Origin: Anaerolineales bacterium
GTDB lineage: Bacteria > Chloroflexota > Anaerolineae > Anaerolineales > UBA11579
NCBI GenBank assembly: GCA_019637755.1
Contig: JAHBVC010000002.1
Span: 1-64,000 of the forward strand
Reading direction: 5' to 3'
DNA length: 64,000 nucleotides
Below, piece by piece: positions 7,609 through 58,049 of this stretch. The notes under the pieces were generated by a model. It was not told the origin of the DNA, searched no databases, and saw only the letters and a program-made list of their open reading frames with translations. Numbering within the stretch: the first letter of the stretch is position 1; each line of letters opens with the position of its first letter. The position numbers and the translations under genes are program-made.

Positions 7609-7947
7609 TTCCAGGTTGGTCGGATGATCGCGGGTTCCCTTCGGGGGGCTCGAGGAAAGTCCGCACTCCATAGGGCATGGCGCCGGGGAAATCCCGGGGC
7701 GGGGAAACCTGCCGGATCGGGCCACAGAAATACACCACCGCGCAAGCGGCCAGGGTGAAATGGTGAGGTAAGAGCTCACCGGCGCGGCAGCAATGTCCGC
7801 GGCCAGGCAACCCCCGCTGGGAGCAAGGCCAAACAGAGGTGAGCAGCGGCCCGCTGCACTTGAGCCTCGGGTAGGCTGCACAGATAGATGATCATCCAAG
7901 CCCGTTCTGCGGGCTGGACAAAATGCGGCTTATAGACCGGCCTGGAA
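7609..7947 (+). ncRNA. rnpB: RNase P RNA, bacterial class A
   Basis: Catalytic RNA that matures the 5' ends of tRNAs. Diagnostic conserved blocks are present in order: GAGGAAAGTCCGCACTCC (7652-7669), CAGAAATACACC, the GAGGTAAGAGCTCACC block, CAAGGCCAAACAGAGG, AGATAGATGATC and the closing ACAAAATGCGGCTTATAGACC. The ends pair as helix P1 (TTCCAGGTTGGTC, 7609-7621, with GACCGGCCTGGAA, 7935-7947), including wobble pairs. The length of about 339 nt fits class A. The ends are set from P1 pairing and agree with the promoter position. Confidence 0.96.
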
Positions 7948-7990
7948 ACAGTGCCGCTGCACCCTCCCCGGGGCAGCGGCACTGTTTCCA
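7943..7990. terminator. 18-bp perfect hairpin after the RNase P RNA
   Basis: TGGAAACAGTGCCGCTGC (7943-7960) and its exact reverse complement (7973-7990) flank a 12-nt loop, lying between the convergent rnpB and ptsH genes. It lacks a clean T-run on either strand. Its left arm overlaps the 3' strand of P1 of the RNase P RNA, so the two helices are mutually exclusive. It probably acts as a bidirectional terminator or 3'-end processing signal. Confidence 0.55.
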
Positions 7991-30529: not shown

Positions 30530-30936
30530 ATTTGCCAATCCTCACCACCTGCGTGCATCCTTCCTTCCCCAGCCGCTAGTTGAAGCCAGTCTTGGCAATC
30601 TACCACCGAACTCCGTAGGGGCGCAGCATGCTGCGCCCCTACTAATCACCCAAACCGACATGCCTCGCGTGTCGCCCTGAGCGCAGCGAAGGGCATCCGC
30701 AGACCCAATTCCATAAAAACCACCCCGCCGGAAACGCGTGAGGGTGCAGCCCAGTGACCCCCCAACTGCAGCCGGTTCCCGCTTCCCACTATACGAGGAG
30801 CAACAGGGCGAGCAGGCCTTTTGTAAGCCGCTTGTTGCGACGTGGCAATCTGCCTTTACTGATCCACCCAAACAAAAAAAAGCGGCCAGCTTGCGCCAAC
30901 CGCTCTCAACTCTCAACTCAAACCACAATGCCTAAC
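30530..30936. repeat. Gene-free 407-bp spacer with repeat remnants
   Basis: No convincing gene. It contains the 28-bp palindrome listed separately and, at about 30671-30705, a segment related to the 147-bp array at 49381 (CCTGAGCGCAGCGAAGGGC compared with CCTGAGCG...AGCGAAGGATC). A block of mixed sequence with an A-run (30870-30880) follows up to the dtxR-like stop. It separates the foreign-looking AbiJ gene from core genes. Confidence 0.5.
30615..30642. repeat. 28-bp perfect palindrome
   Basis: The half-site GTAGGGGCGCAGCA is followed directly by its reverse complement TGCTGCGCCCCTAC, with no loop. Palindromes of this style (GTAGGGGCGC...GCGCCCCTAC) are, from memory, scattered repeats in many environmental bacterial genomes. 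It could extrude as a hairpin or act as a transcription stop. Confidence 0.8.
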
Positions 30937-38788: not shown

Positions 38789-38971
38789 CCAATGTGTGGA
38801 ATTCCTTTACTGGTCGAAGCCCAGTAGGAGCTCCTTGAAGCTGTAAAAGGAATGCCCCTTTGTGGATGTGTACCGAACCAATGCGTGGAGTTTCGTGACT
38901 CGGCACAGCCGAGTAGAAACTCCCTAAAGCTGTAGAGGGGATGTGCCCAAAGGGCACATCCCCTCTACAGC
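38789..38971. repeat. Two diverged 89-bp hairpin repeats beside tRNA-Glu
   Basis: Units starting at 38789 and 38878 share CCAATGNGTGGA at the left and a region like CTCC-TNAAGCTGTANAGGNATG at the right, and each folds on itself. In the second, GGAGTTTC pairs with GAAACTCC around an inner ACTCGG/CCGAGT stem. The array ends in a perfect 20-bp hairpin with a 3-nt loop (arms 38929-38948 and 38952-38971) that lies 3 nt past the 3' end of tRNA-Glu and is followed on that strand by TTTAGGG. It probably serves as the tRNA terminator. Confidence 0.65.
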
Positions 38972-38974
38972 AAT

Positions 38975-39046
38975 GCCCCCACGGGGATTCGAACCCCGGT
39001 TTTAGCCTTGAAAGGGCCACGTCCTAGGCCTCTAGACGATGGGGGC
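38975..39046 (-). tRNA. tRNA-Glu (anticodon TTC)
   Basis: Complete cloverleaf: acceptor stem GCCCCCA/TGGGGGC, D arm GTCT...AGGAC, anticodon loop CTTTCAA giving anticodon TTC, and T arm CGGGGTTCGAATCCCCG. The 3' CCA is not encoded. The 72-nt length is normal for tRNA-Glu. Confidence 0.96.
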
Positions 39047-39048
39047 GT

Positions 39049-39093
39049 AGCCAATTGCTTCGCAATTGGCTCTGGAGTTCGCAAGCGAACTCC
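39049..39093. repeat. Two adjacent short hairpins upstream of tRNA-Glu
   Basis: AGCCAATTGC-TTC-GCAATTGGCT (39049-39071) is followed by GGAGTTCGC-AA-GCGAACTCC (39074-39093). Both are perfect. They lie directly 5' of the tRNA on its strand and would be in its leader or promoter region. Confidence 0.6.
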
Positions 39094-39177
39094 AACGGTC
39101 ACTCGTAAGTATGAGGCTGATCTCATACTTGAGCAAGGCGAGATTTTACCATGCCTATGTGGAAAATTTGCAGCAGT

Positions 39178-57359: not shown

Positions 57360-57450
57360 GGGGAGGTCGCATAGCCCGGTCTAGTGCGCCCGCCTGCTAA
57401 GTGGGTTCCGGAGGTTTCTCCGGACGAGGGTTCAAATCCCTCCCTCCCCG
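57360..57450 (+). tRNA. tRNA-Ser (anticodon GCT)
   Basis: 91-nt class II tRNA. Acceptor stem GGGGAGG/CCTCCCC, anticodon loop CTGCTAA giving GCT, long variable arm (GTTCCGGAGGTTTCTCCGGAC) and T arm GAGGGTTCAAATCCCTC. It lies 13 nt after the other tRNA-Ser, so the two are probably co-transcribed. Confidence 0.96.
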
Positions 57451-57452
57451 CC

Positions 57453-57480
57453 TTGAATTGTGCTGCAGTAGCGGTACAAT
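57453..57480 (+). promoter_or_regulatory. Promoter candidate before the structured RNA region
   Basis: TTGAAT (57453-57458), a 16-nt spacer and TACAAT (57475-57480), directly after tRNA-Ser(GCT), would start transcription near 57487. Confidence 0.5.
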
Positions 57481-57486
57481 TCCCCG

Positions 57487-57697
57487 CCGAGTCAGGATGG
57501 CATCTGAGCCTGACTTAACAACAGATGTGAGGACTAGCTCCTCGTCTACTCGTCATACCGCAGACGCGTAGAAAGCTGAGGTCTAAGTCACCTCGCTGCC
57601 AGTACTGCCGCCACGCGGCGTTCGCTGCCCTTGCGAACGCCAAAGTGTGAGGCGGTTGTTGGTGAATTACTAGCTGAGGCTATAACCGCCTCACACA
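57487..57697 (+). ncRNA. Candidate structured RNA between tRNA-Ser and tRNA-Arg
   Basis: About 210 nt without a credible gene but with consecutive stems on the plus strand. They are GTCAGG/CCTGAC near its start, GAGGA-CTAGC-TCCTC, a CTACTCG/CGCGTAG stem with one mismatch, GAGGT/ACCTC, a perfect 9-bp GGCGTTCGC/GCGAACGCC (about 57618-57642) and a perfect 13-bp GTGTGAGGCGGTT/AACCGCCTCACAC (57645-57657 with 57683-57695) just before tRNA-Arg. A promoter precedes it. I do not find the conserved blocks of tmRNA, SRP RNA or RNase P RNA. It may be a lineage-specific RNA or a long tRNA-processing spacer. Confidence 0.45.
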
Positions 57698-57698
57698 A

Positions 57699-57771
57699 GC
57701 TCTCGTAGCTCAGTGGATAGAGCACTTGCTTGCGGAGCAAGGGGTCGCGTGTTCGAGTCGCGCCGAGAGCG
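57699..57771 (+). tRNA. tRNA-Arg (anticodon GCG)
   Basis: 73 nt: acceptor stem GCTCTCG/CGAGAGC, D arm GCTC...GAGC, anticodon arm CTTGC-TTGCGGA-GCAAG, T arm GCGTG/CGCGC with TTCGAGT loop. The anticodon is GCG, reading CGC and CGU. Most bacteria use ACG (deaminated to ICG) for these codons, so this is an uncommon form. CCA is not encoded. Confidence 0.93.
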
Positions 57772-57784
57772 CTACGCTGCGCAG

Positions 57785-57952
57785 CAGCGTCTAAAGTTGC
57801 TTCGCAACTTTCCAGAGACCGCCGTTTTTACGGCGGTTTTTGGTTTAACCGTCCACTTGGTGGGCTACGTTGCTGCGCAGCGTTTAAAGTTGCTTCGCAA
57901 GTTTCCAGAGACCGCCGCTTTTACGGCGGTTTTTGGTTTAACTACCCGCTTG
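57785..57952 (+). terminator. Duplicated terminator unit after tRNA-Arg
   Basis: Two copies of a unit of about 75 bp follow the tRNA: GCAGCGT-YTAAAGTTGCTTCGCAA, then TTTCCAGAG and ACCGCCG-hairpin-CGGCGGTTTTTGG. Each ends in a good intrinsic terminator (stems at about 57819-57840 and 57911-57935). A third partial start (CTGCTGCGCAGCGT) is at 57962-57976. The units also contain the small hairpin AGTTGC-TTC-GCAACT in the first copy. Confidence 0.75.
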
Positions 57953-58049
57953 GCACACAGCGCTGCTGCGCAGCGTACCAGTCTGCCCACTACCTGGCAG
58001 GCATCCTGCATCTGGGAACCAAACCCTGTACAATCGAGTCTTACAGCGT

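Follow-up and report, generated by a model that had tools for sequence, protein, structure and literature searches.

In Escherichia coli, the protein subunit of RNase P touches leader nucleotides lying 5' of N(-3), and leader stem-loops near the cleavage site act as anti-determinants for the enzyme (PMC9433436; PMC10731613). The tRNA-valV leader of the valVW operon has a stem-loop just 5' of the site at which RNase P cleaves (PMC9433436). By inhibiting cleavage, this stem-loop sets the order in which its operon is processed (PMC9433436; PMC10731613). What was known before is the slowing of RNase P by leader stem-loops on single E. coli precursors.

Two other described systems invite comparison with the locus treated here. 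Mitochondrial double-hairpin elements place two adjacent hairpins in spacers; they are repeated or mobile elements. The second is 6S (SsrS) RNA (RF00013), which came into question because a structured RNA about 200 nt long had been suspected at this position. The suspicion arose in a first-pass annotation of the window, by which we mean the whole 64,000-nucleotide stretch of Chloroflexota DNA that was analysed. It concerned positions 57487-57697, between tRNA genes.

Here we report that this stretch is very probably the 5' leader of the tRNA-Arg(GCG) transcription unit and not a separate RNA gene. Its conserved core consists of two hairpins, H_A and H_B, with an A-rich linker between them, and is maintained despite the turnover of its sequence. 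As in valV, a stem-loop immediately precedes the tRNA, with 2 nt separating the end of H_B from tRNA-Arg. The valV case is one leader in one operon, whereas here a two-hairpin module recurs on the same isoacceptors within a Chloroflexota family and its sequence turns over in pairs; an effect on RNase P would be an analogy drawn from E. coli. Unlike the mitochondrial elements, these hairpins are unique to each locus and fixed before particular tRNAs. The best explanation overall, to which we assign a probability of roughly 70%, is a recurring two-hairpin pre-tRNA leader, whose most likely role would be to limit the access of RNase P.

The tRNA-Arg(GCG) leader in the window

The features of the locus are collected in Table 1, together with those of a second instance of the module described below. 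Much of the first-pass description held. The promoter-like hexamers reported ahead of the stretch are there, with one such pair in the region where shuffling would predict 0.2. So are both perfect stems, one of 9 bp and one of 13 bp, the longer (57645-57657 with 57684-57696) lying within H_B. Because the promoter-like pair ends at 57480, a transcript start near 57487 is plausible, and from the position of this promoter we infer that the leader stem-loop is transcribed. The absence of a coding frame was likewise borne out: the open frames that overlap the stretch, at 42-56 amino acids, are of chance size.

Table 1. Positions of the two module-bearing leaders and neighbouring features in the window
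Feature	Position	Strand	Remark
tRNA-Ser(GCU)	57360-57452		upstream flank of the stretch
Promoter-like pair TTGAAT-N16-TACAAT	57453-57480	+	
H0, 12-bp hairpin GAATTGTGCTGC-AGTA-GCGGTACAATTC	57455-57482	+	overlaps promoter; hairpin kept, sequence changing
Variable leader part	57487-57616	+	extra stems not kept across the genus
Example of a non-conserved stem, AGTCAGG/CCTGACT	57490-57496/57509-57515	+	within the variable part
H_A, perfect 9-bp hairpin GGCGTTCGC/GCGAACGCC	57617-57641	+	followed by AAA
H_B hairpin GTGTGAGGCGGTT/AACCGCCTCACAC	57645-57696	+	15 pairs including one G-U; 2 nt short of tRNA-Arg
tRNA-Arg(GCG)	57699-57772	+	gene owning the leader
Terminator-like hairpin with T run	57818-57842	+	likely end of the tRNA-Arg transcript
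tRNA-Glu(UUC)	38974-39046	-	gene of the second instance
tRNA-Glu(UUC) leader	39049-39130	-	second module instance
H_B of tRNA-Glu(UUC) leader, CCAATTGC-GAA-GCAATTGG	39049-39071	-	2 nt before tRNA
H_A of tRNA-Glu(UUC) leader, TGGAGTTCGC/GCGAACTCCA	39073-39094	-	nearly the same as tRNA-Arg H_A
Third hairpin of tRNA-Glu(UUC) leader	39107-39130	-	
TAAAAT upstream of tRNA-Glu(UUC) leader	about 39143-39148	-	

The stretch folds far more stably than its composition would suggest. The minimum free energy of 57487-57697 is -88.7 kcal/mol (z = -5.3; equally low in none of 200 shuffles), and z falls to -5.6 once the promoter hairpin is added to the folded stretch. An Rfam scan, which the first-pass annotation had proposed as a check, places no family over the stretch at gathering score; at E values up to 10 it yields only fragments far below that score. 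The tmRNA and SRP RNA features that had been called absent indeed find no Rfam match here.

Downstream of the tRNA, at 57771-57956, a 93-nt unit of hairpins and a terminator-like stem is present as a tandem duplicate whose copies are 85% identical.

The locus across the genus and beyond it

We compared the locus in the genome that contains the window (G000) and in ten more from its genus. All 11 share the order tRNA-Ser(UGA), tRNA-Ser(GCU), spacer, tRNA-Arg(GCG), and the spacer measures 246 (G000), 300, 272, 208, 194, 190, 187, 159, 108, 90 (G005) and 73 (G010) nt. In alignments, its middle is unconserved. What is conserved is H0 over the promoter-like site and, beside tRNA-Arg, H_A and H_B with the A-rich linker between them. 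H_B ends 1-2 nt before tRNA-Arg, and a flush stem stands there in every genome of the set. The roughly six stems noted in the first pass agree with the predicted fold, but only the last two and the promoter hairpin hold their place in relatives. The -10-like TACAAT is likewise retained in all 11 genomes. Several of them have a weak -35-like hexamer or have lost it, which leaves room for read-through from tRNA-Ser.

Could the stretch nonetheless be an independent, lineage-specific stable RNA gene, perhaps a divergent 6S RNA, as first proposed? It has a promoter-like site of its own and folds strongly, and 6S RNA (RF00013) has no match elsewhere in G000, nor at the stretch itself, at gathering score or at E up to 10. 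Neither fold nor length is fixed, however: across a single genus the spacer ranges from 73 to 300 nt, with only the promoter and the tRNA-proximal hairpins kept, and it carries separate hairpins where one long, centrally bulged rod of similar length would be expected of 6S RNA. Moreover, in three of the 11 genus genomes, and only in those, a 6S candidate is found at another place. The one in G010 (L008, G010:C1:106619-106781) scores 37.7 bits, below gathering score, and has its own promoter and terminator; its homologues lie in G009 and G002 (L130, L131). We consider a separate RNA gene very improbable.

Other families were compared as well. The bacterial SRP RNA models (RF00169, RF01854) do not match the stretch; among the candidates scored in the 11 genus genomes they give no clear match, the best reaching 19 bits (G006, L014) and 23 bits (G000, L023). 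tmRNA (RF00023) is found elsewhere, at G000:C1:445735-446118, and is present in 11 of 11 genus genomes.

Covariation, another check proposed in the first pass, is indeed present, though it comes from separate leader hairpins and not from one fixed fold. All cells are paired both in the H_A arms of 11 leaders (99 of 99) and in the outer H_B arms of 11 distinct stems, percentages that are circular, because the arms were hand-picked for pairing and their loops swapped for a fixed GAAA. Left out of the H_A set were G003 (a 10-bp stem), L098 (one G-G mismatch) and L102 (in which the outer pair fails). Five of the nine H_A pairs have changed on both sides, with a covariation score of 0.469 against 0.134 in shuffles; for H_B, seven of seven pairs have done so. 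Clean double substitutions between close relatives, in stems that are otherwise alignable, are free of this circularity: GTGTGAGG/CCTCACAC, GTGCGAGG/CCTCGCAC and GCGTGAGG/CCTCACGC. Leader stems turn over by paired substitution or by wholesale replacement.

Genera g3, g7 and g9 of the family likewise have the pair H_A-H_B upstream of tRNA-Arg(GCG), built from quite different stems. One example (L099) reads GGTGTTTGC-AGA-GCAAACACC and then AATAAAAATGC-GGA-GCATTTTTATT ahead of tRNA-Arg. In g9 the module stands before tRNA-Arg(GCG) though no tRNA-Ser is adjacent; the element therefore goes with tRNA-Arg. The alternative first-pass label, a processed tRNA spacer, comes near this reading, in which the stretch is a 5' leader owned by the tRNA-Arg unit and carried by it also at loci that lack tRNA-Ser genes. 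In genera g8 and g2 the Ser-Arg spacers are short, most with TATAAT-like boxes. A contig scan for tRNA-Arg(GCG) returned 24 loci, with a flush hairpin at eight, which belong to the same genus species as the 11-genome set and are not independent evidence. The 16 loci without one come from other Anaerolineales and Chloroflexota, and many have a -10-like box shortly before the tRNA. Since tRNA-Arg(GCG) works behind short leaders in other genera, the module is dispensable in evolution.

These patterns might also arise without any function, if a mutational process (template switching at quasi-palindromes, with tandem duplication) keeps producing perfect short palindromes. Such a process would account for stems that are often perfect, with 3-nt loops, for the complete turnover of their sequence and for the loss of hairpins at some tRNA genes. 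It would also account for tandem hairpin duplicates, which occur in the tRNA-Arg leaders of G007 and G008 and in the Glu leaders of G010. An undirected process, however, would not be expected to put hairpins so close to the tRNA (0-4 nt), or to favour the same isoacceptors in different genera. Nor does it fit H_A, which is partly conserved in sequence across genera, retaining GTTYGC. We regard this explanation as unlikely, if worth keeping in view.

The same layout before other tRNA genes

We called a hairpin flush if its end lay 0-4 nt from the tRNA and it had no fewer than 7 Watson-Crick pairs closing a loop of at most 10, or 10 where the loop was longer. With this definition we compared tRNA genes and their flanks in three genomes of the genus (G000, G004 and G010) and one of another genus (G016). 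Flush hairpins precede 10 of 48 tRNA genes in G000, 6 of 48 in G004, 4 of 46 in G010 and 6 of 46 in G016. At eleven other offsets the same test gave 0-3, with means of about 0.7, 1.5, 0.6 and 0.6, respectively. All four genomes have a flush hairpin on Arg-GCG and Glu-UUC; on Glu-CUC, Thr-GGU and Ala-GGC it is present in three of the four. None of 20,000 permutations reached five isoacceptors in at least three of four genomes, a figure that ignores the shared ancestry of the three same-genus genomes. In G016, where the stems differ in sequence, four of the five recurring isoacceptors have the hairpin. Single cases on Ile and Met may be chance.

An H_A-like hairpin stands ahead of H_B in many of these leaders, among them that of tRNA-Glu(UUC) in the window (Table 1). 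A -10-like box lies within 26 nt of none of the 26 hairpin-bearing tRNAs, versus 93 of 162 others. The promoters of the former would therefore be more distant, which makes it most likely that the hairpins are part of the transcript. The upstream regions of tmRNA and RNase P RNA have no flush hairpins; tmRNA has an ordinary close promoter. A search elsewhere in the window for the H_A motif with fixed flanks found no match, a negative that says little because the pattern demanded GTGG and missed known copies.

The hairpins might instead be copies of a dispersed palindromic repeat, or of a mobile hairpin element that has landed between tRNA genes. Some genomes carry tandemly duplicated hairpins, and further hairpins are present near tRNAs, both of which would suit this idea. 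Yet in each genome the leader hairpin patterns are confined to their own locus, apart from one match with 1 mismatch in G004, and the few further matches in the window are at chance level. Many similar copies per genome, the mark of such repeats, were not seen. We give this origin very little credence.

Two structures near the Glu genes may be recorded here. Directly 3' of tRNA-Glu(UUC) in the window, at 38929-38971 on the minus strand, is a perfect stem of 20 bp, capped by a 3-nt loop and lacking a clear T run. The G010 leaders of tRNA-Glu(UUC) and tRNA-Glu(CUC) (L166, L182) contain tandemly repeated hairpins, as does the tRNA-Arg leader in G007 and G008.

Possible effects on tRNA maturation

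How might such a leader act? By analogy with the known anti-determinants, RNase P should bind the leader less readily when a helix stops 0-4 nt short of the tRNA. In the precursor RNA, H_B would abut the acceptor stem and conceal the single-stranded leader held by the RNase P protein. The tRNA 5' end would then be freed slowly, or only after a prior cut in the A-rich linker, and the hairpins would meanwhile shield the 5' side of the precursor. We propose this limiting role tentatively, at somewhat less than even odds, on the strength of the E. coli precedent.

Alternatively, the hairpins could protect or insulate the precursor, keeping the leader off the tRNA and blocking the entry of a 5' exonuclease or endonuclease, with RNase P not slowed at all. 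Folds of full-length leader plus tRNA, for both Arg and Glu, are in keeping with this, as they show the cloverleaf beside separate hairpins. In partition-function calculations the acceptor stem is better preserved with native than with shuffled leaders in only 13 of 20 cases, some of them confounded by neighbouring tRNAs. Pure protection is a close rival, though on balance unlikely. Less probable again, and frankly speculative, is that a lineage-specific two-hairpin leader marks the Arg-GCG, Glu, Thr-GGU and Ala-GGC tRNAs for shared, regulated maturation, perhaps with H_A recognised by a protein dedicated to it, and that their supply is thereby tuned after transcription.

We found no description of the module in the open-licence papers searched, and the data hint that the two-hairpin leader is an undescribed way of handling tRNA precursors. 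If this is true, a lineage in which several isoacceptors retain flush hairpins although the sequence of these is replaced would offer a natural experiment on how leaders control tRNA maturation. The locus also carries a caution: strong covariation beside tRNA genes need not signal a separate non-coding RNA gene.

Some further observations concern the genome at large. A class A RNase P RNA lies at 7612-7948 (217 bits). The Arg anticodons seen are CCG, CCU, GCG, UCG and UCU; ACG was not seen, so CGU and CGC may be read without inosine. At 30615-30642 there is a perfect palindrome, GTAGGGGCGCAGCATGCTGCGCCCCTAC, and the tmRNA gene (L128) has a similar one, GGCGCAGCATGCTGCGCCCC, in its upstream region; the former may therefore be a dispersed repeat.
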